From: Terrabacter aerolatus
GTDB lineage: Bacteria; Actinomycetota; Actinomycetes; Actinomycetales; Dermatophilaceae
Assembly: GCF_007991735.1 (NCBI RefSeq)
Contig: NZ_BJYX01000007.1
Location: 1-64,000, forward strand
Length of the DNA: 64,000 nt
Direction: 5' to 3'
The notes under the pieces are model-generated. The model saw nothing but the letters and a program-made list of their open reading frames with translations, did not search any database and had not been told where the DNA came from. The position numbers were made by a program, and so were the translations under genes. Positions 958-53,447 of the stretch are shown one piece after another; the first letter of the stretch is position 1, and each line of letters starts with the position of its first letter.

Positions 958-1601
958 CCGAATCCGGACCGTTGAACGTGATGGCCCGCAGGGTGACGAG
1001 CCCGTTCCGGCCCGGCGCATCCGCAACGTCCGATCATCGGCATGACAGGAAGAGTGCGTCCGTCGTTCCGGTCCCCTGACGCGCCGGGGCGCCGGAATGG
1101 TGCAACAACCTGTTGCGCCAGGTCGTGCTCGGCAGAGTGCTGATTCGTCCGAACCGCTCCCACGCCTTCTTGACGTCGAGCCCAGCATCAGCACAGTCCC
1201 TACGGACGTCCCGGTAGCTCATCTGGGCGTTCCCAGATTGGCGCGCCGCATTCCTGCCGGCAAGGGTGGCCGAGGGGGACTTTTCCGATGGCTGCAGGTC
1301 GGAATGCTTCTTCTTACCCCCCAGAGGCCCGGGGTGGGGAGTCCTGGTGCAACTTCCCGCAACTTCGGTCGGAACCACACTCGTTCACGCACCGACCGAC
1401 GCGAACCCCACGCCAGTATGCCGCAGTCGACCCGGCGCTCGACGCGAGCCCCCGCGACAGCGCTCGTGCGATGCAACGATCCGCCGGCGAGGCACCGGAC
1501 CCTCAAGCCTGATGCGCTCCCAGCCCGCATCAGGCTCCTCGCGTTCCGGCGCTCGCCCAGGGGATGCGCGTCCACGGCCCGGGTTGCGGGATGATCTGGT
1601 C
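958..1601 (+). other. Gene-poor stretch of about 640 bp
   Basis: No convincing gene is visible here. Reading frames run through it on both strands, but their protein composition (long runs of Arg, Pro and Ser) is that of non-coding GC-rich sequence. It holds one good hairpin near 1506-1536 and one copy of the dispersed octamer GTATGCCG at 1416. It may be the remains of a lost gene between the two small membrane-protein genes, but nothing recognisable is left. Confidence 0.5.
1506..1536 (+). terminator. Orphan hairpin, terminator-like
   Basis: AGCCTGATGCG and CGCATCAGGCT form a perfect 11-bp stem around a 9-nt loop. No T-run follows, which is usual for high-GC actinobacterial terminators. No gene ends just before it on either strand, so its role is unclear. 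Confidence 0.4.
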
Positions 1602-2126
1602 ATGCGTCGCCCAGGCACGACGGCCCCGCCGAGGGGCGCGTCATCCACACAGCCGACGCTCGTCCTCGCGCACGCCCGTCGGACGTTGGACACGGTCGTC
1701 GGCACGTTCCTGGGCGGGCTGGTCCTGATCGGATCCGCCTCCGGGACCCTGGCCAACTGGTCTCCGCGGGCAAGCATCGTGGTGGCTGGCCTTCTCGTCC
1801 CGGCATGGTTGATCGCGATCGTCCGCGCGACGCGAGCCCGTGTCGAGGTCAGCTCGGACGGTCTTCGGATCCGCCGGGTCTTCGGCACGCGGACCATCCC
1901 TGCGGCTGACTACGACGGAGTCACCTACAACCTGACGGTCTTTCCCCCGGGACCCTCCCTCGCGATCCGGCGCACGTCCGGCCACCCGGTCAGTGCCCCG
2001 AGCGCCTTGGACATGCGCGAGCACCCGCTGAAGAGCCTCGACGACGAGGTCGCCGAGCTCGGCCAGCTCATCGCCGCTGCGCTCGGCGGCCCATCGGCAG
2101 GCTCCCCGGCGCACTCGGGCGCGTGA
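1602..2126 (+). CDS. Two-TM PH-domain (bPH6-like) membrane protein
   Basis: The 174-residue product has an N-terminal tail, two transmembrane segments (about residues 30-50 and 55-75), and a C-terminal domain beginning RVEVSSDGLRIRRVFG. That is the typical strand pattern of actinobacterial PH-domain (bPH6-type) proteins, which are anchored on the cytoplasmic face of the membrane. The ATG at 1602 was chosen because residues encoded upstream in the same frame look random. Its GTGA stop overlaps the earliest possible start of the next gene, so the two may be co-transcribed. The role is unknown. Confidence 0.6.
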   Translation: MRRPGTTAPPRGASSTQPTLVLAHARRTLDTVVGTFLGGLVLIGSASGTLANWSPRASIVVAGLLVPAWLIAIVRATRARVEVSSDGLRIRRVFGTRTIPAADYDGVTYNLTVFPPGPSLAIRRTSGHPVSAPSALDMREHPLKSLDDEVAELGQLIAAALGGPSAGSPAHSGA

Positions 2127-2164
2127 GGCGGACACCCCTCTGGGGTTACCTGCATGATGAGCGG

Positions 2165-2971
2165 ATGGAAGCGGAGGAACCTCTTTACGGTGGGGATGTG
2201 ACCGAGGGCGTGGTGCGCGTCGGGAACACCGTGCGCCGCCCGCAGGGACCGCATTCCCCGACCGTGCACATGGTGCTGAGGCACCTTGAGTCCGTTGGCT
2301 TTGCAGGCGCGCCCAAGGTGCTGGGGGTCGACGACAAAGGCCGCGAGGTCCTGACCTTCGTCACCGGCGAGGTGGCGGGTCGTCCGTGGCCGTCCTGGGT
2401 CGCGGACGCGGACCGGGCCACGTCGGTGGCGCGTCTGGCACGCGAGCTTGACGACGCGCTCGAGCTCCTCGGCCTCCCCCGAGACACGCCAGGGGACACC
2501 GCGGCGATGCACGAAGCACCGGGACGTCCCGGACCTGAACCGTCCTTCCTGGGTCATCGCGATTTCACGCCCGAGAACACCGTCTTCCGAGGCGAGGAGG
2601 CCGTCGCGTTCATCGACTTCGACCTGGCCCGCCCGTCCACACGCATCGACGAGGTGGCAAACCTGCTGCTGTGGTGGGGTGGTTGGATGCCGCCCGAGGA
2701 CCGGGAGGAGGTGATGCAGGACGTCGACGCCGCAGGCCACGGCCGGTTGTTGGTCGACGCCTACGGCTTGGCTCCCGCCCACCGCGAGTGGCTCGTGCCG
2801 GTGTCGATCGCTGCGGCGGAGCGGTCGTGGTACTCGATGCGAGACCGCGCGCGCACTCACGGAGGAGGGTGGGCGCGGATGTGGGATGCCGGGATGGGTG
2901 ATCGCATCAAGCGCCGCGCGGCATGGCTTCGTCAGGAGCAGAGCCGTCTTCATGCCGCCGTGACTCCCTGA
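2165..2971 (+). CDS. Aminoglycoside phosphotransferase (APH)-fold kinase
   Basis: The 268-residue product has the protein-kinase-like fold of the APH/choline kinase family. The catalytic loop is visible as HRDFTPEN (about residues 131-138) and the metal-binding DFG-equivalent as DFDLA (about 151-155). The nucleotide-binding N-lobe is short and poorly conserved. Family members phosphorylate hydroxyls of small molecules (aminoglycosides, macrolides, homoserine, choline), and the substrate cannot be inferred here, so resistance should not be assumed. The ATG at 2165 is preferred; a GTG at 2123, overlapping the previous stop, is possible and would add 14 residues. Confidence 0.7.
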   Translation: MEAEEPLYGGDVTEGVVRVGNTVRRPQGPHSPTVHMVLRHLESVGFAGAPKVLGVDDKGREVLTFVTGEVAGRPWPSWVADADRATSVARLARELDDALELLGLPRDTPGDTAAMHEAPGRPGPEPSFLGHRDFTPENTVFRGEEAVAFIDFDLARPSTRIDEVANLLLWWGGWMPPEDREEVMQDVDAAGHGRLLVDAYGLAPAHREWLVPVSIAAAERSWYSMRDRARTHGGGWARMWDAGMGDRIKRRAAWLRQEQSRLHAAVTP

Positions 2972-3160
2972 CCTGCTCGGCGCGTGTGCCGGATGCCGCG
3001 CCGCGGCACGCCCGATCGGCGGAAGAGAGCACGTCTGCGTGACCCGGGTAGCGATGCGGTATGCCGGCCTGACCGCGTCGGTCCTCCTTGGTCGTTGCCG
3101 GGCTGTCGGTCGACGTAGACGGTCATCGTGAGGTCGTCCTCACCATCGGTCACTTGGGCA

Positions 3161-4876: not shown

Positions 4877-5452
4877 ATGGGAAATCTGATCTACGCGGCC
4901 AACGTCTCGCTCGACGGCTTCCTCGAGGACGAGACGGGTGCGTTCGACTGGTCCGTGCCCGACGAGGCCGTCCACGCGTTCTGGAACGAGCACGAGCGGC
5001 ACATCGGCACGTCGCTCTACGGGCGACGCATGTACGAGACGATGCGGGTCTGGGACAGCGACGACTGGTTGACGGACGAGCCGGAGGTGGTCCACGAGTA
5101 TGCCGGCATCTGGCGTGACGCGGACAAGGTCGTCTACTCCACGTCACTGACCGAGGTGACCACCGCGCGCACGCGGCTCGAGCGGACGTTCGAGCCCGAG
5201 GCCGTGCGACGCCTCAAGGAGACCTCCGACTCGGATCTCAGCATCGGAGGTGCGGGGATCGCGGCCGAGGCCTTCCGCCACGGTCTGGTCGACGAGTGCG
5301 TGCTGCTGCTGTGCCCGGTCGTCGTCGGCGGCGGCAAGCCGGCACTGCCTCGAGGGGTCCGACTCGACCTCGAGCTGCTCGACCACCGACGCTTCGCCAA
5401 CGGCGTGGTCTGCGTCCGTCACGCAGTCCGACACCCTGACGGGCACGTGTAG
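4877..5452 (+). CDS. Dihydrofolate reductase-like (RibD C-terminal family) protein
   Basis: The 191-residue product is a single RibD_C/DHFR-fold domain. The start IYAANVSLDGFLEDETG is the hallmark of the family, followed by GRRMYETM and the NADPH-binding stretch SIGGAGIAAEAF near residue 135. Members are NADPH-dependent reductases of mostly unknown substrate and are common as solitary genes in Actinobacteria. They are not the essential FolA, which is shorter and carries different folate-binding residues. A GGAGGGG sequence precedes the ATG. Methyltransferase and reductase genes are divergent across a 160-bp gap that shows nothing else. Confidence 0.85.
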   Translation: MGNLIYAANVSLDGFLEDETGAFDWSVPDEAVHAFWNEHERHIGTSLYGRRMYETMRVWDSDDWLTDEPEVVHEYAGIWRDADKVVYSTSLTEVTTARTRLERTFEPEAVRRLKETSDSDLSIGGAGIAAEAFRHGLVDECVLLLCPVVVGGGKPALPRGVRLDLELLDHRRFANGVVCVRHAVRHPDGHV

Positions 5453-9057: not shown

Positions 9058-9210
9058 GCGTGATTGTCCGTGCACGCCACCCCGTCGCTGCCTCACCCGC
9101 CCGGGGTGAAGAGGGCCGGGAGCCCTGGCCACGGGCTTCGCGTCGGGGACGACGCGGCATACGTGCTCGTGGGTATGGTTCGAAGGTCAACGACTTCGCA
9201 GGAGGACAGC

Positions 9211-9732: not shown

Positions 9733-9840
9733 CCGTCGCCCACGCGGTCGTATGCCGTGTGGTCCTCCTCGACCGGCCGTGCCGTCACCTGACGGCGGGG
9801 CCGGCGGGGAGGGCGCTGCCTGACTGACGCGCCGTGACGG

Positions 9841-13728: not shown

Positions 13729-13783
13729 CACACGGCATACGCCTGCTCGTCCGTGGGGTCGGCCGCACGTGTCCGCCCGTGCG

Positions 13784-13870: not shown

Positions 13871-14482
13871 ATGAGCGAGAGCGACCACCGGGCCCCGAGG
13901 CGACCCGCCTTCTTCAGCGAGGCGGCCCTCGAGGCCCACGGTCCTGCCTACGACCCGACGGAGCAGATCCACGTCGCCCACGAGACCGCGCTCGCGCTCG
14001 TCCACGCCGGCCGGGCGGCCGCCGACCCGGCCGTGACGCAGAAGCTCGTCGCGCTCGTCGACGACATCGGCCTGTCGACGCTCGCCGAGCTGTGGTCGCA
14101 GCGCCCGGCCCGCTCGCTCCCGGGGGCGTTGTGGCGCCTCTACGTGCTGCGCGAATGGGTCCGGCGCGCACCCGACGAGGCGAGCCGGGAGTATGCCGCG
14201 GGCATCCGTTTCACCGGGCCCAACCACGCCGTCGCCGGGGCGGCCGAGCCTCCCGGCCCCCAGGAGATGGGTCGCGTCATCGACGAGGTGCTCCGCGGCG
14301 TCTTCGAGGGCGACCTCGCCGTCGCGCTCGAGCGGGCCGCCGCCTTCTGCCGCGTCGTCTCGGCAGGGCGAGCCGACATCTCCAGGGGCGACGAGGCGGC
14401 GGAGCAGGCCGCCAACGTCCTCGTCATGGCCGAGGACCTCACCGTCTGCGCGAGGCTGTGGCGCACCGACGCCCTCCACTGA
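13871..14482 (+). CDS. Conserved actinobacterial protein of unknown function
   Basis: The 203-residue, mainly helical, soluble protein has no signal peptide or membrane segment. Segments such as LSTLAELWSQRPARSLPGALWRLY resemble proteins found across Actinobacteria without an assigned role. No catalytic motif is seen. TAGCCT lies 6 nt before the ATG and no Shine-Dalgarno is present, which suggests a leaderless transcript and fixes the start. Confidence 0.7.
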   Translation: MSESDHRAPRRPAFFSEAALEAHGPAYDPTEQIHVAHETALALVHAGRAAADPAVTQKLVALVDDIGLSTLAELWSQRPARSLPGALWRLYVLREWVRRAPDEASREYAAGIRFTGPNHAVAGAAEPPGPQEMGRVIDEVLRGVFEGDLAVALERAAAFCRVVSAGRADISRGDEAAEQAANVLVMAEDLTVCARLWRTDALH

Positions 14483-15788: not shown

Positions 15789-16793
15789 ATGGACACAACC
15801 ATCCCCGTCCTCGGGGTCGGTGCGGTCATCGCGCTGGCCATGGGCTTCAACTACACCAACGGTTTCCACGACGCCGCCAACGCGATCGCGACCTCCGTCT
15901 CGACCCGCGCCCTGACGCCCCGCGTCGCACTGGCCATGGCGGCCATCGCCAACCTCTTCGGCGCCTTCTTCGGCACCAAGGTGGCCAAGACGATCGGCTC
16001 GGGCATCATCGAGCAGCCGCAGGGGGTCAACGGCCTGTGGCTCGTCGCCGCGGCGCTCGTCGGCGCCATCGGCTGGAACCTGCTCACCTGGTGGTTCGGG
16101 CTCCCGTCGAGCTCGTCCCACGCCCTCATCGGAGGCCTGGGCGGCGCTGCGCTCGTCGCCGGCGTCGCCGTCAAGTGGAGCGTCATCTGGGAGAAGGTCA
16201 TCATCCCGATGATCGTCTCGCCCATCGTCGGTCTCGTCGTCGGCTACCTCGTCATGACGGCGATCTTCTGGATCTTCCGCAACGCCAACCCGGGCCGCGT
16301 CACGCGTGGCTTCCGCCTCGCGCAGACGGCCTCCGCCGCGGCCATGGCGTTCGGTCACGGCCTCCAGGACGCCGCCAAGACGGCCGGTGTCGTCGTCCTC
16401 GCGCTGACGATCTCCGGGCACCACAGCGACGACAGCATCCCGATCTGGGTCCTCGTGCTGTCGGCCGTCGTGATCTCGCTGGGCACGTATGCCGGTGGGT
16501 GGCGCATCATGCGCACGCTGGGTCGTCGCATCATCGACCTCACGCCGCCGCAGGGCTTCGCGGCCGAGACGACGGCCGCGGCGATCCTCTACGTCGCCGG
16601 CCTCGCCTTCGGGGCCCCGATCTCGACGACCCACACCATCACGGCGGCGATCATGGGCGTCGGCGCCACCAAGCGCCTGTCGGCCGTCCGGTGGAGCGTG
16701 GCCGGCAACATCGTCGGCGCGTGGTTCCTGACGTTCCCCGGTGCCGGCCTCGTGGCCGTCGTCGCCTGGTACGCCACCTCGATCTTCCGCTGA
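15789..16793 (+). CDS. pit: Low-affinity inorganic phosphate transporter Pit
   Basis: The 334-residue integral membrane protein has about nine to ten helices. The paired Pit (PHO4) signatures appear twice, as expected from internal duplication: GFNYTNGFHDAANAIAT near the N-terminus and GHGLQDAAKTAG near residue 196. SSSSHALIGG and ISTTHTITAAI are the two matching substrate-loop motifs. Pit proteins import metal-phosphate with protons (or Na+) at moderate affinity and serve when phosphate is plentiful. Here the gene converges on the high-affinity pst operon. Confidence 0.95.
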   Translation: MDTTIPVLGVGAVIALAMGFNYTNGFHDAANAIATSVSTRALTPRVALAMAAIANLFGAFFGTKVAKTIGSGIIEQPQGVNGLWLVAAALVGAIGWNLLTWWFGLPSSSSHALIGGLGGAALVAGVAVKWSVIWEKVIIPMIVSPIVGLVVGYLVMTAIFWIFRNANPGRVTRGFRLAQTASAAAMAFGHGLQDAAKTAGVVVLALTISGHHSDDSIPIWVLVLSAVVISLGTYAGGWRIMRTLGRRIIDLTPPQGFAAETTAAAILYVAGLAFGAPISTTHTITAAIMGVGATKRLSAVRWSVAGNIVGAWFLTFPGAGLVAVVAWYATSIFR

Positions 16794-16844
16794 CCCGGCC
16801 ACCCGGCATACGCCCCGGGTTCTCCGGCACGCCCCGGCTGCTTT

Positions 16845-17724: not shown

Positions 17725-18690
17725 TTACTTCTTGACCGAGCCGTAGTGCGCGATGACACGGCCGATGAGGTTGAGCAGCAGGACGAGGATGATGAGGGTG
17801 AGCGCGGCGCCCCACATGCGCTCGGCCGCGGTGGCCAGGGCGAAGTCGCCGCGGTCCTGGTTGATCATCATGGGGAGGGTCGGGAAGTTGCCGTTGAACA
17901 GGTCCCGCTGGAAGTTCTTCGTGTACGGCGCGAGGATCAGCAGCGGCGCCGTCTCGCCCATGACGCGGGCGATGCCGAGCAGCACGCCGGTCACGATGCC
18001 CGAGAAGGCCGTGCGCAGCACGACCTTGACGACGGTGACCCACTTGGGCACGCCGAGGGCGTATGCCGCCTCGCGCAGCTCGTTGGGCACGAGCTTGAGC
18101 ATCTCCTCGGTCGAGCGCACGATCACGGGGATCATGAGCAGCACGAGGGCGAGGGACGCGGCGAACCCGGAGCGGCCGAGTCCGAACGTCGTGACCCACA
18201 CGGCATAGATGAACAGCGCCGCGACGATCGAGGGGACGCCCGAGAGGATGTCGACGGTGAAGCTGATCGCCTTCGCGAGCCGGCCGCGGCCGTACTCGAC
18301 GAGGTAGACGGCGGTGAGGATGCCGATCGGCACGGCGATGAGCGCGGTGAAGCCGACCATCTGGAGGGTGCCCTCGATGGCGTGGCGCGCGCCGCCGCCG
18401 AAGTCGTCGGAGTTGATGTTGCGCTGGTTGCCCGTCCACCACGTCGCGGTGGTGAGCATGTGGAAGCCCTTGCCGACGACGGTGCCGAGGATCCACACGA
18501 GCGGCACCATGGCCAGGGCGAAGGCGCCCCACATGACGATCCGCGCCACGACGTCCTTGATCATGCGGGCCCGGTGCGGGTTGCTCATCTCGGAGAGCGC
18601 GTCACGGCCCGGGCGGCCGCCCGGGGGCGTGGACGGGTCCCCCGGGACGGCCCGGTCGTCGGGGGCGCGGCGGTCGGTCGCGGTGCTCAT
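17725..18690 (-). CDS. pstA: Phosphate ABC transporter permease PstA
   Basis: The 321-residue permease begins with a 40-residue polar cytoplasmic tail, followed by six predicted transmembrane segments and the EAA coupling loop ([31 protein letters not shown]). The ATG at 18690 overlaps the pstC stop (ATGA), giving translational coupling. It pairs with PstC to form the membrane channel. Confidence 0.95.
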
Positions 18691-21293: not shown

Positions 21294-22244
21294 CTAGGTG
21301 TCGATGCGCTCCACGTCGACGACCCGGGCGTCCTCACCGCGTCCGACGAGGTGGCACACGAGCGCCTCGCCCTTGCGCATCGACTCCTCGGCGGCGACCC
21401 GCAGCTGCTCCGCCACCACCTCACCGCGCTCGGGCGATCGGCCCACCCGGGCGTGCAGCATCCCGAGCAGCGTCGGGAGCACCGGCCCGTGGCTGCACAG
21501 CGCGGAAGGGTCGCCGCGCTCGAGCAGGCGCCGGACCTGGGCGACGGCGCCCTCCCCGCTCTCGGCGAAGCCTTCCTCGGAGAGCGCGTCCCGGGTGCGC
21601 AGGCGCAGTCCGTGCTGCACGGCATACGGCTCGAGGGTGGCGACGCAGCGGTCCGAGGAGGAGGAGACCATACGGGTCACGCCGTAGGCGTCGAGCACGT
21701 CGGACAGGCTGCTCGCCTGGGCGCGGCCGACGGCGTCGAGGGGGCGTCGCCGGTCGTCGCCGCTCCAGCGGCCCCGCGGCGTGGCCTTCGCGTGCCGGAC
21801 GAGCACGAGCGGCCAGGACCGCAGCTCGTCGGCCCGCTCGGCCCGGATCAGGGCCAGCAGCTGCTCGCGGTCCCGGGCGTAGTCGAGGCGGCTGTGCGCA
21901 GTGCGAACGTCGACCCAGTCGACCTCGTCGATCTCGTGCTCGAGCACGCCCGAGCCGCCGGTGACCCGGGCCGACCAGTAGTGCACCTGCTTCGTGGCGG
22001 GTCCGCCGGTGGGGTCGAGCACCGGGTACTCCGCCGACGGCAGCGGCACGCCGAGCCGCACGACGAGCCCGGTCTCCTCCAGCGTCTCGCGCGCCGCCGC
22101 CACGCAGGCGTGCTCACCGGGGTCGAGCTTGCCCTTGGCCCACGACCAGTCGTCGTATTTCGGCCGGTGCACGAGGGCGACCTCGAGACGTCCATCGCGA
22201 CGCCGCCAGGGCAGCGTGCCGGCGGCGGGGATCACAGAGGCCAC
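21294..22244 (-). CDS. mutT1: MutT1-like Nudix hydrolase fused to histidine phosphatase
   Basis: The 316-residue product has two domains, as in mycobacterial MutT1. An N-terminal Nudix domain carries the full box G38-x5-E44-x7-REtLEEtGL. A C-terminal histidine-phosphatase domain starts near residue 144 with LVLVRHAKA, includes SSSSDRCVATLEP, and ends with SHGPVLPTLL. In mycobacteria this protein removes oxidised nucleotides (8-oxo-dGTP) and hydrolyses diadenosine polyphosphates. Its position two genes downstream of ppk is the same conserved neighbourhood as in mycobacteria. Confidence 0.85.
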   Translation of the reverse strand: MASVIPAAGTLPWRRRDGRLEVALVHRPKYDDWSWAKGKLDPGEHACVAAARETLEETGLVVRLGVPLPSAEYPVLDPTGGPATKQVHYWSARVTGGSGVLEHEIDEVDWVDVRTAHSRLDYARDREQLLALIRAERADELRSWPLVLVRHAKATPRGRWSGDDRRRPLDAVGRAQASSLSDVLDAYGVTRMVSSSSDRCVATLEPYAVQHGLRLRTRDALSEEGFAESGEGAVAQVRRLLERGDPSALCSHGPVLPTLLGMLHARVGRSPERGEVVAEQLRVAAEESMRKGEALVCHLVGRGEDARVVDVERIDT

Positions 22245-22319
22245 ACGCGCCAGTGTGCCCGACGATGCCTCCCGGGGCGGCGCGACCGGCCCGACGGGTG
22301 CGCCCTGCCCGTATGCCGG

Positions 22320-24961: not shown

Positions 24962-25912
24962 TCAGCCCGGAGCCGTGGCGGAGGCCGCGTCGAGGCTTCC
25001 GGCGCGCGCGTACTGCCGGTGCACCTCGACGTCGGTGAAACCGAGGGCGGCGTAGGTGCGCACGGCGGCGACGTTGTCCTCGTCGACGTAGAGCACGACG
25101 CGGTCGAGGCCGAGGCTGCGCAGGTGGTCCAGGCCCAGCACCGTGACGGCGCGACCCAGCCCCTGGCCCTGCCGGTCCGACGAGACGGCCACGACGTAGA
25201 CCTCGCCCACGTCGCCACCCGGAGGGTCGACCTTCGTCCAGTGCGAGGCCGCGAGGACGTCCGGGGCGTCCGCCTCGACGACGAGGATGAGGCCGGCCGG
25301 GTCCCACCACGGCTCGGCCGTCCGCTGGTCGAGGTCAGCCCGGCGCAGCGACCCCTGCTCCGGGTGGTGCGCGAAGGCCGCCGCGTTGAGGGCCAGCCAC
25401 GCGTCCTCGTCACGTCCGGGCTCGAAGGAGCGGACGGCATACCTCCCGTCGAGCGACGCCGTCGGCCAGGCCGGCCCGTCGCGCAGGGAGCGCCCCATGA
25501 CGTGGAGGGAGCGGACGGCCACGAGGCCGTTGGCGCGGGCGAAGGAGGTCGCCGCGTCGGCGGCCGCACCCGTCGCGTGGCTCCACACGCGGACGCCGTC
25601 CGGCAGGCTCGCGAGCAGGGCGCTGCCCACGCCGGTGCGCCGGGCCGCCGGCGCGACGACGAGCTCGGCAGAGGGAGGCCCCTCGCCGGTGCGCGACTGC
25701 GCGTAGCCGACGAGCGTGCCCCCGGCGTCGGTCGCGAGCAGGTGGTCCACCCCGTCGTGCTCCCGAGCGCGCACCGACAGCCGGAACTGCTCCGACAGTG
25801 CCGGTGAGCCGTCGACGCCGGCGGCGTCTGCGGCCAGGGCGAGGACGGCGTCGGCCTCGTCGGCGGTGAGCGGGTGCTGGGCGTCACGCAGGGCGACGTT
25901 CGGGCGCGGCAT
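24962..25912 (-). CDS. mshD: Mycothiol synthase MshD
   Basis: The 316-residue product has two tandem GNAT domains, the mark of MshD. MshD acetylates Cys-GlcN-Ins with acetyl-CoA in the last step of mycothiol synthesis. The N-terminal copy is degenerate ([19 protein letters not shown]). The C-terminal copy is well conserved ([31 protein letters not shown], then [19 protein letters not shown]). The ATG lies inside a copy of the dispersed octamer GTATGCCG. mshA lies 12 kb away. Confidence 0.85.
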
Positions 25913-26165
25913 ACGGCGATTCCACCACAGCGTCGCCCGGCGGTCTCCCGCCCGTCGCCGGTCGCGGCTAAGGTCCCGGTCAGGGCTCGGGGGCCCTGCA
26001 CGCAACTCAAGACGCCGGGCCGGACGCTGCACGGCCCGGGGTCCACGCCGTGCCAGCAGTTCGCCAACACCATCACTCGGCAAGCCCCTCCGGCGACCCC
26101 CGGGGCACTAGCCTCCGTGGGTGCCGACGGGCACGCAACCCACACCGCTGAACAAGGGGAGACAC

Positions 26166-27999: not shown

Positions 28000-28073
28000 C
28001 CACGTCCTGCGGCCGCCCAGCAGGGCCGACCGATGGCGTATGCCGTGTGCCTGATCGAGCGATCGAGCGTCGG

Positions 28074-30098: not shown

Positions 30099-30470
30099 TC
30101 AGTAGACGAGCGCCTGGGCGCCGGCGGTCATGACCTCCTCGACGAAGACGGCCGCGCCCTTGACGACCGCGCCCGCGACGAGCTGGTCCTCGGTCAGGTC
30201 GCGCCGAGCGGCGCACTGGCTGCACACCGTGACCCGGCCACCCGCGAGCACCGCGTCACGCAGGTCGACGAGCGGCGCGGCATACGGCAGCTCGAACTCC
30301 TCGGCCCGCCCCGGCACGGCCATCCACGTCGACTCGCCGGTCAGCCAGAGCGACACCTCGACGCCGCTCGCGACGGCCGTCGCGGCGACGGTGAAGGCCT
30401 GCGAGAGACGTTCGGGAGCCTCGGTGCCGGCGGTGACCTTGACGACGAGCGAGCGTGCGGGGGAGTCCAT
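30099..30470 (-). CDS. DsrE/DsrF-like protein
   Basis: This soluble 123-residue protein has a DsrE-type alpha/beta fold. It starts with LVVKVTAGTEAPERLSQAFTVA, contains VEVSLWLTGESTW, and has a cysteine pair in VTVCSQCAARRDL that could carry sulfur. Homologues act in sulfur relay or are of unknown function. TAGCCT lies 6 nt before the ATG and its -10 overlaps that of the divergent nitrobindin gene. Confidence 0.8.
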   Translation of the reverse strand: MDSPARSLVVKVTAGTEAPERLSQAFTVAATAVASGVEVSLWLTGESTWMAVPGRAEEFELPYAAPLVDLRDAVLAGGRVTVCSQCAARRDLTEDQLVAGAVVKGAAVFVEEVMTAGAQALVY

Positions 30471-30991: not shown

Positions 30992-31024
30992 CCCACCCCG
31001 TGACCTCGGAATGAGGCGTATGCC

Positions 31025-32086
31025 GTGAGCGTTCCACCCAGCATGAGCGACGTGGAGCTGCCCACCCGACCGGTGACGACGAGCCCGCTGCTGTCGCGGC
31101 CGGGGGCCGTGGCCGGCGAGGGTCTCGAGTCCGGCGTCGCGCTTCACTACGGCGACCCGATGCGCGAGCAGCGCCTGCTCGAGGAGGGCCTGGCCGTCGT
31201 CGACCTGTCGAACCGCGACGTCGTCACGGTCACCGGCGTCGACCGGCTCACCTGGCTCCACTCCCTGACCACCCAGCACCTCCTCGGCCTCGAGCCGCAC
31301 CAGTCGCGCGAGGCCCTGGTCCTGACGCCCAAGGGCCACGTCGAGCACTCGCTCCACCTCGTCGACGACGGTGCGACGACGTGGATCACGACCGAGCCGG
31401 GTGCGGGGCAGGCGCTGGCCGACTGGCTCGACAGGATGCGCTTCATGCTCCGGGTCGAGGTCGCCCTCGTCACCGACGACTGGGCCGTGCTCGGTGAGCC
31501 GCACGCCAGCGAGTCCGTCGACGGCGAGCCGCTCGCGTGGCGCGACCCGTGGCCCGACCTCGTCGGCGACACCACGGCATACGGCCCCGTCGAGGACCAT
31601 CCGGGCACCGAGCGCGCCTGGCGTGAGGTCATCGTGCCCCGCGCCGATCTCGTTGCGGCGGTGGCGGATCGGCCGCTCGCCGGCCTCTGGGCCGCCGAGG
31701 CGCTGCGCATTGCAGCGTGGCGTCCCCGACTCGGCCTCGAGACCGACCACCGCACGATCGTCCACGAGGTCGACTGGCTCCGCACGGCCGTGCACCTCCA
31801 CAAGGGGTGCTACCGCGGGCAGGAGACGGTGGCGCGCGTCCACAACCTCGGCCGCCCACCGCGCCGTCTCGTCTTCCTCCACCTCGACGGGTCCGGGCAC
31901 GTCCTGCCGGCCCAGGGGAGCGAGGTCCGCCTGGGCGACCGCGTCGTCGGCCGCGTGACCTCCGTCGGACGCCACCACGTCGACGGGCCCATCGCCCTCG
32001 CGGTCATCAAGCGCAACACCGACCCGGAGGCCGAGCTGCTCGTCGACGACCTCTCCGCGGCACAGACGACCGTCGTCGCTCCCTGA
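31025..32086 (+). CDS. ygfZ: YgfZ/GcvT-like folate-binding protein
   Basis: The 353-residue product has the aminomethyltransferase-like fold of YgfZ. The diagnostic motif KGCYRGQETVARVHNLGRPPRRL lies near residue 260, with the key Cys. YgfZ proteins use tetrahydrofolate and assist maintenance of certain Fe-S enzymes such as MiaB. A GTG at 31025 follows GAGG with 8 nt; an in-frame ATG at 31043 is possible. It lies 33 bp after the nitrobindin gene, probably in the same operon. Confidence 0.88.
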   Translation: MSVPPSMSDVELPTRPVTTSPLLSRPGAVAGEGLESGVALHYGDPMREQRLLEEGLAVVDLSNRDVVTVTGVDRLTWLHSLTTQHLLGLEPHQSREALVLTPKGHVEHSLHLVDDGATTWITTEPGAGQALADWLDRMRFMLRVEVALVTDDWAVLGEPHASESVDGEPLAWRDPWPDLVGDTTAYGPVEDHPGTERAWREVIVPRADLVAAVADRPLAGLWAAEALRIAAWRPRLGLETDHRTIVHEVDWLRTAVHLHKGCYRGQETVARVHNLGRPPRRLVFLHLDGSGHVLPAQGSEVRLGDRVVGRVTSVGRHHVDGPIALAVIKRNTDPEAELLVDDLSAAQTTVVAP

Positions 32087-33629: not shown

Positions 33630-34670
33630 ATGGCACTGACCAAGAAGATCACCAAGGCCGTCAAGGACGCACAGAAGCAGGCCGAGGCCGCCGTCGCCGA
33701 CGTGCGCGGCCAGCTCGTCCAGGTCGAGGGCCGCATGCCCGAGGTCCAGGTCGACCCGACCCCGTTCTACGCCGTCGTCGGCGCCGCCAACATGGCGATC
33801 GACACGGTGCGCACCGCGGGCGAGCAGCTCGAGGTCGCCCGCCGCCAGGCCAAGGGTGCCGACCTGCGCAAGGGCGCCAAGAAGGAGGCGAACCAGCTGC
33901 AGAAGGACCTCCAGAAGCGCATCGTCGACCTCCAGAGCCGCACCGCCGAGCTCCAGAAGCTCGCGACGACGTATGCCGAGCGCTTCGTCACGCAGGCGCA
34001 GGACCTCCCGGCCCGCGTCCTCAACGAAGGCCTCGTCATCGCGAGCAACGCCAAGGACCAGTACGACGCCGCGGCTGCCCGTGGCGAGAAGGTCGTCACC
34101 GACCTGCGCGCCCAGGGCGAGCGCACCGCCATCGACCTCAGCGAGCGGGGCACCGCCACCGTGACCCGTGGCCGTCGCGTCGCCGAGACCGCCGTCAGCG
34201 AGGGTGAGAAGGTCGCCAAGAGCCTCAAGGACGTCGTCGCCAAGGACGCCTCGAAGATCGGCTCGCAGGTCGAGGCCTCCGTCGAGGCCGTCGAGTCCGC
34301 CGCCGCCCCGGTGCCGGCCAAGCGCACGGCCGCCCACCAGCGCGCCATCCGCAAGTCCGCTGCGCAGAAGGCTGCCGCCACGCGCAAGGACAACGCGGTC
34401 GAGGCGACGACGACCCGCAAGGTCGCGGCCCGCAGCTCGGCCACGACGGACGACGCCAACGCCACGGTGGCCCGCAAGGTCGCCCCGGCCAAGCGCGCCG
34501 CCAAGAAGACGGTGAAGAAGGCTGCCGCCAAGACCACCGCCGCCACCAAGAGCGCGTCCTCGACCGCCAAGACGGCCGCGAAGAAGTCCGCTCCGTCCAC
34601 GTCGACGACCACGTCCACGACCACGTCGACGACCCCGGCCAAGAGCGCCTCGGACACGACCTCCAGCTGA
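33630..34670 (+). CDS. HBHA-like heparin-binding hemagglutinin family protein
   Basis: The 346-residue product has a long helical, coiled-coil N-terminal half (about residues 1-215). A C-terminal half rich in Lys/Ala repeats (AAKKTVKKAAAKTT, KTAAKKSAPS) follows, and the last 30 residues are Ser/Thr repeats. This is the layout of mycobacterial HBHA, whose Lys-rich tail binds sulfated glycans and which also affects membrane or lipid structure. No signal peptide is present, as in HBHA. The gene begins one base after the XRE gene stop, so the two are coupled. Confidence 0.8.
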   Translation: MALTKKITKAVKDAQKQAEAAVADVRGQLVQVEGRMPEVQVDPTPFYAVVGAANMAIDTVRTAGEQLEVARRQAKGADLRKGAKKEANQLQKDLQKRIVDLQSRTAELQKLATTYAERFVTQAQDLPARVLNEGLVIASNAKDQYDAAAARGEKVVTDLRAQGERTAIDLSERGTATVTRGRRVAETAVSEGEKVAKSLKDVVAKDASKIGSQVEASVEAVESAAAPVPAKRTAAHQRAIRKSAAQKAAATRKDNAVEATTTRKVAARSSATTDDANATVARKVAPAKRAAKKTVKKAAAKTTAATKSASSTAKTAAKKSAPSTSTTTSTTTSTTPAKSASDTTSS

Positions 34671-34729: not shown

Positions 34730-34755
34730 TGCGTGCCTCCGGCATACTGCGGGGC

Positions 34756-38125: not shown

Positions 38126-39448
38126 ATGCCGATGGCGGCGGTCGAGCCGAGACGGGTGGCGATGATCAGCGTCCACACCTCGCCCCTGGAGCAGCCGGGC
38201 ACCGGCGACGCCGGCGGTCTCAACGTCTACGTCGCCGAGACCGCCAGGGAGCTCGCGGCCCGCGGCATCGAGGTCGACATCTTCACGCGTCGGACCACCG
38301 GTGAGACGCCCGTCGAGGCCGACCTCGTCCCCGGTGTGCGGGTGCGTCACGTGACCGCCGGGCCCTACGAGGGGCTCGCCAAGGAGGACCTCCCGGGACA
38401 GCTCTGTGCGTTCTCCGCCGGCATCATGCAGGCGGGGCTCTCCGTCCCCGAGGACCACTACGACCTCGTCCACTCCCACTACTGGCTCTCGGGCCAGGTC
38501 GGGTGGCTCGCCGCCGACCGGTGGCGCGTGGCCCTCGTGCACACCATGCACACGATGGCCCGCGTCAAGAACCTCCACCTCGCCGATGGCGACCCGCCCG
38601 AACCGCGCGGTCGCGAGATCGGTGAGGTCCAGGTCGTCGAGGCCGCCGACCGGCTCATCGCCAACACCGACGACGAGGCGCGCGAGCTCATCGAGCTGTA
38701 TGCCGCCCCGCCGGCCAAGGTGTCCGTCGTCCCGCCCGGCGTCGACCTCACGACGTTCACGCCCGGCGACCGTCGCGAAGCCCGTCGGGCCCTGGGTCTG
38801 CCCGTCGACGGCGAGCTGCTGCTCTTCGTCGGCCGCATCCAGCCCCTCAAGGCGCCGGACGTGCTGCTCCGGGTCGCCGGGGAGCTGCTGCGCCGCGACC
38901 CCGCACGTCGGGAGCGCCTGACCGTCGCGGTCCTCGGCGGACCGAGTGGCAGCGGGCTGACCCGCCCGCACGAGCTCGAGGAGCTCGCCCGCGGTCTCGG
39001 CATCGACGACGTCGTCCGCTTCGTGCGCCCGGTCGCGCGGCCGGTGCTCGCCCAGTGGTACCGCGCCGCCGACCTCGTGCTCGTGCCGAGCCACTCGGAG
39101 TCCTTCGGCCTCGTCGCCATCGAGGCACAGGCCTGCGGCACGCCGGTCGTGGCCGCCCACGTGGGAGGCCTGCCCACCGCGGTCGGAGACGCCGGCGTGC
39201 TCGTCGACGGTCACGCCACCCCCGCGTGGGCCGACGCCGTCGAGTCCCTGCTGCGGGACGACCGCAGACGCCTGGCGCTCGGCTCCGCCGCCGTGTCGCA
39301 CGCGGCCCAGTTCGGCTGGGGTGCGACCACCGACCGGCTGCTCGAGGTCTACCAGCAGGCCATCCGCGAGCGGGCCAACGGCACCAACGAGTCACCCATC
39401 GACGAGGGCCAGAGCCTCGTCGGCGTCCCCACGGCGGTGATCCCGTGA
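38126..39448 (+). CDS. mshA: D-inositol-3-phosphate glycosyltransferase MshA
   Basis: The 440-residue GT4 (GT-B fold) enzyme starts mycothiol synthesis by joining GlcNAc from UDP-GlcNAc to inositol-3-phosphate. The N-terminal domain has [18 protein letters not shown]. The C-terminal domain has [16 protein letters not shown] and the sugar-nucleotide motif [22 protein letters not shown]. An in-frame ATG two codons later (38132) has the better spaced AAGGG and may be the real start. It overlaps the YbjN gene by GTGA. Confidence 0.95.
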
Positions 39449-39987
39449 GCGCCGCACCGCAGGAGGTCGACGAGGCCGACGGGTCGCCGCGCGCGGCCGC
39501 GGAGGCCCGCCTCACGGCATACCTCGACTCCGTCGGTCTCGAGTGGGAGCTCGGCGGGCGCGCGGGGGAGTACGTCGTGACGCTACCCGGCGAGAAGAAG
39601 CTCAAGACGGTGGTCTCGGTGCTCGTGCGCGACCGCACCACGAGCATCAGCGCGTTCGTCATCCGCAACCCGGACGAGAACCACGAGGTGTTCTACCGCA
39701 CCCTGCTGCGCAAGAACCTCCGGCTGCAGGGGGTCGCCTACGCCATCGACACCGACGGAGACGTCTACCTGCGGGGCGAGATCCCCACCGTGGCGGTCGA
39801 GGCCGACCACCTCGACCAGGTCTTCGGCATCGTGCTGTCGGCGAGCGACGACGCCTTCAACGAGCTGCTCGCGCTCGGCTTCCTCGGCTCGATGAGGAAG
39901 GAGTGGGCCTGGCGCGTGTCGCGCGGCGAGTCCACCCGCAACCTCGACGCGTTCCGACACCTGTTGGACGACGGGTCGGACGCCTGA
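39445..39987 (+). CDS. YbjN domain protein
   Basis: The 180-residue product has a YbjN-type (type III secretion chaperone-like) alpha/beta domain. Its role is unknown, but it sits between mshA and gpmA as Rv0487 does in M. tuberculosis. Visible family segments are [39 protein letters not shown] and DVYLRGEIP. The GTG start overlaps the mshA stop, so it is translationally coupled to mycothiol synthesis. Confidence 0.88.
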
Positions 39988-41541: not shown

Positions 41542-41713
41542 GGTCTTCCTGTCGGTCGCCGGTCGTGCGTCGTCGTGCCGCCACGACTGGCCGTCGCGGT
41601 CACGAGGGCCAGCCTGTCATCCCGGGACGTGTCCGGGACGGCATACGGACGGGGCGGCACGTCCCCGCTGGTGCAGAGGCTCGCAGGGCTGCGTGAATGG
41701 GTGGGGACGCTCA

Positions 41714-41793: not shown

Positions 41794-43029
41794 GTGGACC
41801 CGACGACCGCGGCAACGCTCGGTGGCATCGCCGGCCTCGCCCTCGGCGGCCTGGCGATGGTCGCCGTGCGCCTGTCGGACCGCTCGACCGCGGCCGAGGT
41901 CCCCTCGCCGCCCGAGCCGCTGCTGCCGCCCGGCGTGGGGGAGGTCATCGCGGTGCTGCGCTCGAGCGGGATCCTCGTCGACTCCTCGGACCGTGTCGTC
42001 AACAACTCGCCCGCCGCCGTCGCGCAAGGCCTCGTGCGGGGGCAGGAGCTCGTGCACCCGGAGCTGCTCCACCTCGCCCGTGCGGTGCGCCGCGACGGCA
42101 TCATCCGCGAGGCCGAGCTCACCCTGCAGAAGGGCATCGGCGACGGGCGCCTCGTCGTGGCCGCCCGGGTCGCACCCCTCGGCGCCGACCACGTGCTCCT
42201 CCTCGTCGAGGACCGCTCCAAGGCGGCCCGCGTCGAGGAGATCCGCCGCGACTTCCTCGCCAACGTCAGCCACGAGCTCAAGACCCCGGTGGGCGGCATC
42301 TCGCTCCTCGCCGAGGCCGTGCTCGACGCGCACGACGACCCCGAGGCGGTCGCGCGGTTCGCCCGGCGGATCAGCGTCGAGTCCGACCGCCTGACCCGTC
42401 TCGTCAAGGAGATCGTCGAGCTCTCGCGCCTGCAGGGGGCCGACGTCATCAAGGACCCCACGCTCATCGACGTAGGAGAGTGCGCGCGCGACGCCACCGA
42501 GCGCAGCCGCCTCATCGCCGACGAGCACCGCATCGAGCTCGTCACGGCCATCGACGAGGGCTGCGAGGTGTGGGGCGACGCCGAGCTCGTGACGACCGCG
42601 ATCAGCAACCTCGTCGGCAACGCCATCGCCTACTCCGACAGCGGCACGCGCGTGGGGGTCATGGTCCGCCGCGGCCGCCCGGGGGTCATCGACGTCTCCG
42701 TCACGGACCAGGGGCTCGGCATCGCACCGGACGAGCAGCAGCGCATCTTCGAGCGCTTCTACCGCGTCGACACGGCGCGCTCGCGCGCCACCGGTGGCAC
42801 GGGGCTCGGGCTCGCGATCGTCAAGCACGTGGCCGACAACCACGGCGGCAACGTGTCGGTGTGGTCCGAGCCCGGACGCGGCTCGACCTTCACGATCGGG
42901 CTGCCCGCGGCCAACGCCTCCGGCGCCATCGACGCTGCCGACGCGACGGAGCCCGCCGAGGCGGGCGAGCCGACCACGTATGCCGTCCTGCCGCACGACA
43001 CGGGCCCGACCTCGTCCGTGAGCGCCTGA
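41794..43029 (+). CDS. senX3: Phosphate-sensing histidine kinase SenX3
   Basis: The 411-residue product has a single N-terminal transmembrane helix (about residues 3-25) and a PAS-like linker (about 50-140). The dimerisation/phosphoacceptor box is RRDFLANVSHELKTPVGGI with the His. The ATPase domain has the N box (ISNLVGNAIAYS), G1 (DQGLGI) and G2 (GGTGLGLAIVKHV). The GTG at 41794 is preferred because TACGCT (41781-41786) lies 7 nt before it, as in other leaderless genes here; the ATG at 41776 would lie upstream of that -10. It signals to RegX3, encoded just downstream. Confidence 0.93.
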   Translation: MDPTTAATLGGIAGLALGGLAMVAVRLSDRSTAAEVPSPPEPLLPPGVGEVIAVLRSSGILVDSSDRVVNNSPAAVAQGLVRGQELVHPELLHLARAVRRDGIIREAELTLQKGIGDGRLVVAARVAPLGADHVLLLVEDRSKAARVEEIRRDFLANVSHELKTPVGGISLLAEAVLDAHDDPEAVARFARRISVESDRLTRLVKEIVELSRLQGADVIKDPTLIDVGECARDATERSRLIADEHRIELVTAIDEGCEVWGDAELVTTAISNLVGNAIAYSDSGTRVGVMVRRGRPGVIDVSVTDQGLGIAPDEQQRIFERFYRVDTARSRATGGTGLGLAIVKHVADNHGGNVSVWSEPGRGSTFTIGLPAANASGAIDAADATEPAEAGEPTTYAVLPHDTGPTSSVSA

Positions 43030-45249: not shown

Positions 45250-45972
45250 CTGATCAACGAGACCGGAGCCGGTCGCGTCGGCGTCATCGTCGTCGCGGCC
45301 GGCTCCGGTTCGCGTCTGGGGGCCGCGGTCCCCAAGGCGTTCGTGCCCCTCGCCGGGGTGCCCCTGCTGGGGCACGCCCTGCGGGGGGTTCTCTCGTGCG
45401 CCGCGGTGTCCGAGGTCGTCGTCGTCGCGCCCCCCGCTCACCGGGGTGACGCCGAGACCCTCGCCGACGAGGTATGCCGTGAGCTCGGGTCCACGACGCG
45501 GGTCACCGTGGTGCCCGGCGGGGCCGAGCGGGGCGACTCCGTCGCGGCGGGCCTGGGCGTGCTCGGTGACGACGTCGAGGTCGTGCTGGTCCACGACGCC
45601 GCCCGGTGCCTGACGCCGGTCGCCGTCTTCGACCGGGTCGTGGCTGCCGTCGCGGCGGGTGCGGTCGCGGTCGTGCCCGGCACCGCCGTCGTCGACACCG
45701 TCAAGCAGGTCGACGCGGACGGCCTCGTCGTCGCGACCCCCGAACGCGCGTCGCTGCGCGCGGTGCAGACGCCTCAGGGTTTCCGGCGCGAGGTGCTCGA
45801 GCGGGCCCACGCGGTCTCCAGCGACGCCACTGACGACGCCGGTCTCGTCGAGCGCCTCGGCGAGCGCGTGCTCGTCGTCGAGGGAGACCCTCGGGCGCTC
45901 AAGGTGACGACGCCCGCGGACCTCGAGTCCGCCGCCCGCCTGCTCACCACCGGGCCGCCTCCACCCGGGTGA
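45250..45972 (+). CDS. ispD: 2-C-methyl-D-erythritol 4-phosphate cytidylyltransferase IspD
   Basis: The protein of about 240 residues carries out the third step of the MEP isoprenoid pathway. The CTP-binding VIVVAAGSGSRLGAAVPKAFVPLAG is followed by HDAARCLTP, ATPERASLRAVQTPQGFRREVL and TDDAGLVE. The start is a problem: no ATG, GTG or TTG occurs in frame between the carD stop and the conserved motif. CTG at 45250 or ATC at 45247/45253 are the only near-cognate candidates, and the coordinate given is a guess. The protein itself is intact. Confidence 0.9.
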   Translation: MINETGAGRVGVIVVAAGSGSRLGAAVPKAFVPLAGVPLLGHALRGVLSCAAVSEVVVVAPPAHRGDAETLADEVCRELGSTTRVTVVPGGAERGDSVAAGLGVLGDDVEVVLVHDAARCLTPVAVFDRVVAAVAAGAVAVVPGTAVVDTVKQVDADGLVVATPERASLRAVQTPQGFRREVLERAHAVSSDATDDAGLVERLGERVLVVEGDPRALKVTTPADLESAARLLTTGPPPPG

Positions 45973-49156: not shown

Positions 49157-49202
49157 CCGGGCCACCCGGCATACGCACGACGGCGTATGCCGGGTGGCCC
49201 GG
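49157..49202 (+). terminator. 20-bp perfect hairpin containing the dispersed octamer
   Basis: Positions 49157-49176 and 49183-49202 pair perfectly around a 6-nt loop, 17 bp after the metallo-hydrolase stop. Each arm contains a complete CGGCATACG / CGTATGCCG motif, so the two octamer copies form the stem. Confidence 0.88.
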
Positions 49203-50782: not shown

Positions 50783-50783
50783 C

Positions 50784-51755: not shown

Positions 51756-51879
51756 CCGGTGGGCGCAGGTCGCCCTCGGTCGTCGCCGGAGTCTCCCGAG
51801 GCCCTTCCCGAGAGGTGGCTCAGGAGCGGCTGTGAGTTCGGGAACTTCGAGCGGCCCTGCCACGCTGGTCAGAGGGTGC

Positions 51880-51917
51880 TCGATTAGAGTGCTGTCGAAT
51901 CGACTACGCCCCGTAGT
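51880..51917 (+). promoter_or_regulatory. Two adjacent palindromes before the DUF929-VKOR operon
   Basis: TCGATT (51880-51885) and AATCGA (51898-51903) form one inverted repeat with a 12-nt spacer. ACTACG (51903-51908) and CGTAGT (51912-51917) form another with CCC between. They share one base. TAGAGT lies inside the first and could be a -10. They are plausible operator sites for an unknown regulator. Confidence 0.35.
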
Positions 51918-51978
51918 ACCCGGCGGGACGTGACGCTTGCACGCTGCTGACGAGCAGCCGGACCGAAGGACGATACCC

Positions 51979-52839
51979 GTGGCGAAGAGCACCCGCGCCG
52001 AGACCGCCGCCCGAGCGGCGCAGCTACGGGCCGAGGCCGCCCGCAAGGACCGCCAGCGCAAGCAGGTCATCGCGGCGTCGGTGGCCGTCGTCGTCGTCGT
52101 CATCGCCGTCGTCCTCGGTGTCGTCATCTCCAACCAGCCCAAGGACGCGCCGGCCGCGTCGGCGGGCGGCAAGGGCGCCGCAGCGCTCGCCACCCTCGAG
52201 AAGCTGCCGGCCTCGCTTCTCGACAAGGCCCCGGCGCCGTCACCGGCCCAGGCCCCGGCCAAGCTGCAGGGTGGCACGGCCCTGACGCAGGACGGCAAGC
52301 CGAAGGTGCTCTACATCGGCGCCGAGTACTGCCCGTTCTGCGCCATGGAGCGCTGGGCGCTCATCGGGGCGCTCTCGCGCTTCGGCACCTTCACCGGCAT
52401 CACCGAGACGACGAGCTCGAGCACCGACGTGCACCCCGACACCCCGACCTTCTCGTTCAAGGACGCGACGTTCACGAGCGACGTCCTCGCCTTCCAGGCC
52501 ATCGAGACCCAGGACCGCGACGGCAAGCCGCTCCAGACCCTCGACGGCGCGAACCTCGCGCTCTTCCAGAAGTTCAACCCCGGCGGCGGCATCCCGTGGA
52601 TCACCTACGGCGGCACGACGGCCACGAGCGGTGCGACCGTCGACACCAACGCGTTCGAGGGCAAGACCTACGACCAGATCATCGCCGGCATCCAGGACCC
52701 CACCTCCGACATCGGCAAGACGGTCACCCCGGCCATCAACATGATCACCGCACAGATCTGCGACCAGACCAAGGGGCAGCCGGCCAACGTCTGCACGAGC
52801 CAGGGCGTGCAGTCCGCGTCCGTGCTGCTCAAGCGGTGA
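51979..52839 (+). CDS. DUF929 thioredoxin-fold membrane-anchored protein
   Basis: The 286-residue product has a basic cytoplasmic N-terminus and one transmembrane helix (about residues 30-52, a long run of Val/Ile). An Ala/Pro-rich linker follows, then an extracytoplasmic thioredoxin-like domain with the redox motif CPFC in YIGAEYCPFCAMERW (about residues 113-127). A second cysteine pair lies near the C-terminus (ICDQTKGQPANVC). It starts with GTG and ends 6 bp before a VKOR gene, so the two probably form a disulfide-generating pair, with VKOR reoxidising this protein. Confidence 0.82.
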   Translation: MAKSTRAETAARAAQLRAEAARKDRQRKQVIAASVAVVVVVIAVVLGVVISNQPKDAPAASAGGKGAAALATLEKLPASLLDKAPAPSPAQAPAKLQGGTALTQDGKPKVLYIGAEYCPFCAMERWALIGALSRFGTFTGITETTSSSTDVHPDTPTFSFKDATFTSDVLAFQAIETQDRDGKPLQTLDGANLALFQKFNPGGGIPWITYGGTTATSGATVDTNAFEGKTYDQIIAGIQDPTSDIGKTVTPAINMITAQICDQTKGQPANVCTSQGVQSASVLLKR

Positions 52840-52845
52840 CCCGCC

Positions 52846-53379
52846 GTGAGCTCGCTGCGTGACGACGTGACCACCGGTCGCACCGCACCGGTCGTGGGTC
52901 GGGAGCGCCCGGCCTGGCTGGCGACCGTGTCGCTGGGGCTGTCCGTCGTCGGTTTGCTCGTCTCCGCCTACCTGACGTTCGAGCACTTCACGTCCAACGC
53001 GACCCTCGCCTGCAGCATCGGTGGCCTCGTCGACTGCGCCAAGGTCACCACGAGTGCGTGGAGCACCTTCATGGGGGTGCCGGTGGCGCTGCTCGGACTC
53101 GTCTTCTTCGTCGTCACGCTCGCGCTCTGCCTGCCGACGGCGTGGCGCCGTCCCGAGCGGTGGCTCGACCTGGCCCGGATCGGCTGGCTCACGGTCGGCC
53201 TCGGCATGGTGCTCTACCTCGTGTGGGCCGAGCTCTACCGGATCCACTCGATCTGCCTGTGGTGCACGGCTGTCCACGTCGTGACGTTCCTGCTGTGGAT
53301 CGTCGTCCTCTTCGGCCAGATCCTCTCGGGGCCGGCCGAGGCGTCCGACGTCCCGGGTGGGGGTATGCCGTCGCGCTGA
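52846..53379 (+). CDS. Vitamin K epoxide reductase (VKOR) family protein
   Basis: The 177-residue product has four transmembrane helices. The active-site CxxC is CLWC in IHSICLWCTAVH, and the shuttle cysteines are ACSIGGLVDC in the first outer loop, as in bacterial VKOR. These enzymes pass electrons from newly formed disulfides to menaquinone. Many actinobacterial VKORs are fused to or paired with a thioredoxin-like partner; here the partner is the DUF929 protein just upstream. It starts with GTG. Confidence 0.92.
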   Translation: MSSLRDDVTTGRTAPVVGRERPAWLATVSLGLSVVGLLVSAYLTFEHFTSNATLACSIGGLVDCAKVTTSAWSTFMGVPVALLGLVFFVVTLALCLPTAWRRPERWLDLARIGWLTVGLGMVLYLVWAELYRIHSICLWCTAVHVVTFLLWIVVLFGQILSGPAEASDVPGGGMPSR

Positions 53380-53447
53380 GCTGCGACGTCGGGTGCCGAC
53401 CACGCCGGGCGGGGACGTGTCCGGGCGACGGGGCGGACGGCATACGT

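Follow-up and report, generated by a model that had tools for sequence, protein, structure and literature searches.

What is one octamer doing at 29 places in 64,000 nucleotides of a Terrabacter genome? The stretch in question, referred to below as the window, comprises positions 1 to 64,000 of contig NZ_BJYX01000007.1 (C7) in the Terrabacter aerolatus assembly GCF_007991735.1 (4,420,518 bases in 62 contigs as counted here), and the octamer is GTATGCCG. The first-pass annotation of this DNA listed the copies and named four roles for them (DNA uptake, methylation, nucleoid binding and replication) without choosing. DNA uptake fits best of the four, because of the word's copy number, its balance between the strands, its inverted pairs, its dialects and the presence of Flp/Tad and ComEA/ComEC genes; a role in replication or segregation is disfavoured by the strand balance. 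It appears probable from the comparisons set out below that Terrabacter and much of its family use GTATGCCG as their DNA uptake sequence, serving a competence machine of the Flp/Tad-pilus type.

A word in large excess

The window holds 29 exact copies of GTATGCCG, 16 on the forward and 13 on the reverse strand: every listed position is an exact match, there are no further copies, and the orientation is as balanced as had been claimed. One hundred dinucleotide-preserving shuffles of the window contain 0.73 copies on average and 3 at most; an order-2 Markov model expects 0.77, and the word has the top z-score among all 8-mers. Genome-wide counting with a Markov correction, named beforehand as the check on which the claim of over-representation was to stand or fall, leaves it standing. 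The 4.42 Mb contain 2163 copies (1072 forward, 1091 reverse) and 195 of the reversed control word GCCGTATG, which is a conservative control because it overlaps the extended form of the motif; 371 contiguous kb of another contig of the same genome, C1, taken together with the window (435 kb), contain 239 copies where an order-3 model expects 11.6. The two 8-mers of highest z-score in these 435 kb, TATGCCGT and GTATGCCG, overlap one another.

The core of the word is sharp: among the 24 octamers that differ from it by one base, a large excess is seen for GGATGCCG alone (94 copies, 47 expected), CTATGCCG is found 10 times for 3.2 expected, and those altered at position 6 or 7 do not exceed expectation. 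The longer form CGTATGCCG, estimated earlier at about 19 copies, is indeed read at 19 of the 29 sites in the window; the fuller motif is CGTATGCCG followed by T/G and then by G/C, and CGTATGCCGT occurs 85 times in the 435 kb for 0.8 expected. Outside the octamer certain bases are favoured. The 71 intergenic copies have C at -1 in 73% of cases, G at -3 in 70% and T at +8 in 63%; for the 168 other copies the figures are 55%, 70% and 48%. A is never found at +12 in either set. These preferences are in part due to codon structure. A longer mobile repeat was ruled out as the source of the copies, since few positions outside the octamer are conserved.

Chi-like recombination words and KOPS-like segregation words are also short and frequent, and GTATGCCG is within their range in length and frequency. 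Words of these two kinds have a marked orientation along the replication arms. The copies in C1 are divided 99 to 111 between the strands, with no lasting bias in any of seven 53-kb bins, and because the strands are thus balanced a role of this kind is very unlikely. Copies in the hundreds to thousands per genome, spread over both strands, are expected of an uptake sequence, and a word that works like one is the favoured interpretation.

Placement within codons and between genes

Could the excess be a by-product of a common Tyr-Ala codon pair, which the first-pass annotation had itself named as the explanation that could undo its claim? Tyrosine is encoded by TAT in 41 of 1708 codons elsewhere in C1 (2.4%) and in 99 of 163 codons standing before GCC-G (61%); the corresponding counts for the window are 6 of 292 and 11 of 23. 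Reading frames vary as had been noticed: the 14 window copies that lie wholly within predicted genes use four of them (TAT GCC 9, antisense GCA TAC 3, GTA TGC 1, ATG CCG 1), and the copies in C1 use all six (TAT GCC 92, antisense GCA TAC 31, ATG CCG 12, antisense GGC ATA 11, GTA TGC 3, antisense CGG CAT 1). The raised usage of TAT before GCC-G and the varied frames together rule out an origin in the codon pair.

Nearly half of the window copies had been placed between genes, and 14 of the 29 are in fact there, in 14.2% of the sequence (binomial p 1.2e-5); in C1 the figures are 57 of 210 copies in 9.8% of the sequence (p 7e-13), the exact shares depending on the simple gene finder of our own by which DNA was classed as genic or intergenic. 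Together with the frames, the TAT usage and the conservation above flanks described below, this enrichment bears out the proposal that what is selected (or driven) is the DNA word and not a peptide.

Within the intergenic DNA of C1 the copies are densest between convergent genes (19 in 5.6 kb), with 30 in 18.1 kb of tandem and 8 in 12.1 kb of divergent spacers. Copies are frequently paired: 10 of the 12 neighbour pairs within 60 bp are inverted. When the surroundings of the 71 intergenic copies are examined up to a distance of 70 bp, 18 of them prove to have another copy nearby in inverted orientation and 2 in direct orientation. Folds were computed for four examples. The pair in the window (-39.3 kcal/mol, z -8.0) is equalled in stability by none of 200 shuffles; two pairs in C1 give z of -10.3 and -6.6, and the fourth example gives -1.3. 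Frequent inverted pairs with predicted terminator-like hairpins are, once more, a property expected of uptake sequences.

Is the word, then, no more than a part of transcription terminators, its coding copies being incidental? Strong predicted hairpins and the crowding of copies between convergent genes are what that explanation would require. As 153 of the 210 copies in C1 are not intergenic, 53 of the 71 intergenic copies lack an inverted partner at a distance of 70 bp or less, and conservation higher than that of the flanks extends to coding copies, it is refuted as the sole explanation and must be considered highly improbable; a secondary use of the word in termination there may be.

The right end of the window, 53446-64000, is free of the word. 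This gap is common to five congeners, and at the observed density of GTATGCCG chance alone should leave gaps of about 10 kb; for both reasons it is not evidence of an island, and a horizontally acquired, word-free island was rejected. (An msiK RNA motif, RF01747 at 59.4 bits, is located inside the word-free stretch at 56622-56678 on the reverse strand.)

Conservation with turnover

Five Terrabacter congeners supply homologous DNA, which aligns with 77-88% of the window at 84-87% identity and permits the word to be compared with its surroundings. Intergenic copies are conserved in 29 of 56 comparisons and flanking 8-mers in 87 of 442; for coding copies the corresponding figures are 42 of 65 and 200 of 520. 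Each congener has 31-37 copies in 62-75 kb, and many of the differences at word sites are single substitutions: the word is maintained among these congeners while its sites turn over. (Another technical matter: the window from 1 to about 7500 has no alignable homolog in the compared stretches of the five genomes, and the three copies in it, at 1416, 3059 and 5098, are outside these counts. This part appears to be strain-specific or rearranged.)

The wider comparison of related genomes that the first-pass annotation had called for covers 186 genomes of the same family (53 genera) and an order-wide sample of 396 genomes, 34 of them from the same family and 362 from others. If at least 400 copies of GTATGCCG are taken as the mark of a word-rich genome, 106 of the 186 family genomes, in 30 of the 53 genera, are word-rich, and the forward share in these ranges from 0.474 to 0.531. 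Elsewhere in the order, 180 copies are exceeded by none of the 362 genomes sampled.

Dialects

Other words are raised in other lineages of the family (designated below, like loci and families, by working labels: G, genome; g, genus; f, family; L, locus). GTACGCCG is raised in each of three sampled genomes of g3 (785-2618 copies) and of g35 (2111-4185 copies), as well as in G012, G013, G014, G015 and G084; it is less raised in G144, G147 and G175, which carry raised GTATGCCG too. (The best TadA1 match in G147 and G175 is weak or short, perhaps reflecting a frameshift.) Each of the 19 genomes belonging to g27 and g36 has 1198-3180 copies of CGAAGGGG, of which none of the other 167 has more than 396; in a single family genome, G178, GGATGCCG is found 89 times in 100 kb for 10.5 expected. 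One genus, g33, encompasses two states: G085 and G086 have 3681 and 1062 copies of GTATGCCG, while G084 has 19 of these but 1463 of GTACGCCG. Three of the four words, GTATGCCG, GTACGCCG and GGATGCCG, have A(T/C)GCCG in common, as dialects with a shared core should.

Samples of 60-100 kb from G011, G021, G022, G038, G161 and G184, covering g5, g11, g12, g16, g47 and g53, yielded no clear word, and neither did G010 (g5), for which genome counts only were used. In G083 (L078-L080, L122-L123) CGATGCGG occurs 67 times in 100 kb for 15.9 expected, and is possibly a further word. Words like AACTCGCAATCAGT and AATTACCCC recur in G161 (L058-L060) and in the Actinomyces-type loci L180, L206, L215 and L240, where they may represent local repeat arrays.

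GGATGCCG reappears in a second family of the order, f19, which is probably Microbacteriaceae, judging by the named Microbacterium loci. These loci (280 kb in total, chosen for encoding the tad-1 pilin Flp1) hold 269 copies, compared with 16 of the reversed word and 52 expected by a Markov model. In the order-wide sample 22 of 33 genomes of f19 have at least 0.5 copies per kb, with up to 4831 in 4.2 Mb, and none of the densities read for the other 363 genomes is higher than about 0.38 per kb (sample genome sizes are rounded and the densities accordingly approximate). Five Microbacterium phages contain 44 copies in 190 kb, that is, 0.23 per kb as against 0.96 in the host loci: about a quarter of the host density, yet twice the phages' own Markov expectation.

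There are two further explanations. The first makes the word a self-mark for methylation or defence, recognised by a DNA methyltransferase or by a comparable system; it is non-palindromic and differs between relatives, as such sites do. Restriction sites are usually depleted, whereas this word is raised twenty-fold, and a self-mark can be given little credence. The second makes GTATGCCG the site of a chromosome-associated protein (for nucleoid architecture, condensation or global regulation) that differs between lineages. A genome-wide, strand-balanced spread and conservation above flanks would fit such a site, and the low density of GGATGCCG in phages would fit any chromosome-only role. Three properties would be unusual for a housekeeping site: 1) inverted pairs crowd between convergent genes, with few copies between divergent ones; 2) the core is sharp and non-palindromic; 3) the word is lost or changed within a genus and is nearly absent from some genera of the same family. 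Moreover, no candidate protein turned up, though no search was aimed at one. We regard a chromosomal protein site as unlikely.

Competence and pilus genes

If GTATGCCG is an uptake sequence, what would read it? The T. aerolatus genome encodes a ComEA-like protein (HHH_3 and SLBB) that adjoins ComEC, a tad-1 locus comprising TadA, TadB, TadC, Flp1, TadE1, TadF1 and TadG1 with an adjoining lamin-tail-domain protein, and a tad-2 locus in which another Flp pilin is encoded; the search covered ComEA, ComEC and the tad genes. Tad-1, tad-2 and ComEA/ComEC constitute the set of the Micrococcus luteus type. Transformation of M. luteus needs two tad clusters and comEC, and deletion of tad or comEC genes abolishes it (available text of PMC4322843). 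The lamin-tail-domain protein (PF00932, 1.1e-26; L093:14461-14919) is encoded directly beside the tad-1 pilins.

Flp1 is matched in 166 of the 186 family genomes. If only genomes of at least 90% completeness are considered (163), 119 of the 150 that have Flp1 also have a word, as do 3 of the 13 that lack it (Fisher p 6e-5, a value that ignores kinship; the word status of G178 in this tabulation comes from its sample only).

The tad-1 operon has been disrupted in several genomes. About 37 kb of foreign DNA splits it between TadC1 and Flp1 in G084 (L101, L132); in G184 (L131, L134) about 10 kb of foreign DNA lies between the same two genes and begins, by eye, with an open reading frame resembling a serine recombinase; in G178 (L109) Flp1, TadE1 and TadF1 are gone, TadG1 is a remnant, and an open reading frame of DWQRQLFQKPLVP repeats stands in their place.

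How the word might act

The following scheme can be offered. A protein of the competence machine, a Flp/Tad pilus with ComEA and ComEC instead of a classical type IV pilus, would bind the word on outside DNA and so prefer the DNA of close relatives. DNA bearing the word would be taken up and recombined more often, and copies born by point mutation would spread. Molecular drive of this kind could account for a density near one copy per 2 kb, shared by both strands, with most copies lying where they are tolerated: between genes, in inverted pairs doubling as terminator-like hairpins, and in permissive codons. When a lineage changed its binding protein, its word would change also, generating dialects.

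A number of observations weigh against this scheme. Competence of Terrabacter has, as far as we know, not been reported. CGAAGGGG lacks a core in common with the other three words, and GGATGCCG is not enriched between genes in the Microbacterium loci (40 of 269 copies, in DNA that is 15.6% intergenic). ComEC is present in 180 of the 186 family genomes, and for that reason was rejected as a discriminator of word-bearing ones. Words occur with no Flp1 match in G074 (2535 copies of GTATGCCG), G093 (3180 of CGAAGGGG) and G178; 31 of the 150 Flp1-positive genomes have none of the counted words (GGATGCCG having been counted in 34 family genomes); and in G008 and G114, where the tad-1 locus is intact, 40 kb of sequence show no enriched word. 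In f19 the presence of Flp1 does not go with that of the word: Flp1 is matched in 31 of 33 genomes (in one of them only at E 0.003), the remaining two hold 4082 and 2327 copies of GGATGCCG, and the word-poorest genome has Flp1. A strict requirement for Flp1 is thus broken by three genomes of the first family and is not seen in the second. Finally, in a comparison made on the tad-1 pilins alone, identities do not track dialect. In g33 the TadE1, TadF1 and TadG1 proteins of G084, which has GTACGCCG, are closer to those of G086 than are those of G085, though G085 and G086 have GTATGCCG. The tad-1 pilins, considered as the reader of the dialect, give no signal in this genus, and since their identities do not follow the dialect no receptor is identified here.

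Sites in the window

Table 1. Copies of GTATGCCG in the window and the inverted repeat formed by two of them
Feature	Position	Strand	Context	Congeners with identical site
GTATGCCG	1416..1423	+	intergenic	
GTATGCCG	3059..3066	+	intergenic	
GTATGCCG	5098..5105	+	within predicted gene	
GTATGCCG	9155..9162	-	intergenic	5/5
GTATGCCG	9750..9757	+	intergenic	
GTATGCCG	13733..13740	-	intergenic	
GTATGCCG	14191..14198	+	within predicted gene	5/5
GTATGCCG	16487..16494	+	within predicted gene	
GTATGCCG	16804..16811	-	intergenic	
GTATGCCG	18061..18068	+	within predicted gene	0/5
GTATGCCG	21620..21627	-	in or touching predicted gene	
GTATGCCG	22311..22318	+	intergenic	0/5
GTATGCCG	25435..25442	-	within predicted gene	5/5
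GTATGCCG	25907..25914	-	within predicted gene	
GTATGCCG	28038..28045	+	intergenic	
GTATGCCG	30278..30285	-	within predicted gene	5/5
GTATGCCG	31018..31025	+	intergenic	
GTATGCCG	31575..31582	-	within predicted gene	
GTATGCCG	33971..33978	+	within predicted gene	
GTATGCCG	34740..34747	-	intergenic	5/5
GTATGCCG	38698..38705	+	within predicted gene	
GTATGCCG	39515..39522	-	within predicted gene	5/5
GTATGCCG	41639..41646	-	intergenic	
GTATGCCG	42978..42985	+	within predicted gene	0/5
GTATGCCG	45472..45479	+	within predicted gene	5/5
Inverted repeat on two words	49160..49199	.	17-bp stem, 6-nt loop; terminator-like, downstream of gene ending 49139	
GTATGCCG	49167..49174	-	intergenic, hairpin left arm	
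GTATGCCG	49185..49192	+	intergenic, hairpin right arm	
GTATGCCG	53363..53370	+	within predicted gene	0/5
GTATGCCG	53438..53445	-	intergenic	

Relation to known uptake systems

The clearest example of bacteria marking DNA as their own is provided by uptake sequences. If GTATGCCG and its dialects are marks of this sort, they constitute an independent case with a different pilus, in which receptor, drive and dialect change could be compared across more than 100 genomes. Changes of word within one genus (G084 as against G085 and G086) would then be natural experiments on the rewriting of a species boundary to gene exchange, and adding the right word to DNA may ease the transformation of strains in these genera. 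We lean towards the view that tagged uptake arose in actinobacteria, with at least four words and in no fewer than two families of one order, and that it is read there by a Flp/Tad machine and not by a ComP-like pilin. Searches of the open-licence literature brought up no uptake word described from actinobacteria, and such a word is likely to be new.

Excerpts of PMC12616744 treat uptake sequences as a feature of the Neisseriaceae and Pasteurellaceae, two Gram-negative families; the genomes described there and in excerpts of PMC3630211 have, as a rule, hundreds to thousands of motifs, inverted repeats and dialects. The likeness of the present word to an uptake sequence is drawn because its copy number, strand balance, hairpin pairs, sharp core, dialects and turnover match those of genomes with the DNA uptake sequence (DUS) or the uptake signal sequence (USS).

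The Flp/Tad transformation system of M. luteus is alike in its two tad loci, ComEA and ComEC (excerpts of PMC4322843); it differs in that the available text of that paper mentions no uptake sequence, nor do any of five related terms occur in that of PMC8467076. The Pasteurellaceae USS resembles the Terrabacter word in its short core, its thousands of copies and its inverted pairs, and differs in having AT-rich flanking segments two helical turns downstream (excerpts of PMC12616744), where the Terrabacter word has a few conserved G/C-rich flanking positions. No counterpart of ComP, the minor pilin that reads the DUS of the Neisseriaceae, was identified when the tad-1 pilins were compared by dialect. 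The DUS itself is similar in its thousands of copies on both strands, its inverted pairs at terminators and its dialects with a partly common core (excerpts of PMC3630211 and PMC12616744); what sets the present word apart is another sequence, carried by Gram-positive, high-GC actinobacteria, in the company of pilus genes of the Flp/Tad type.

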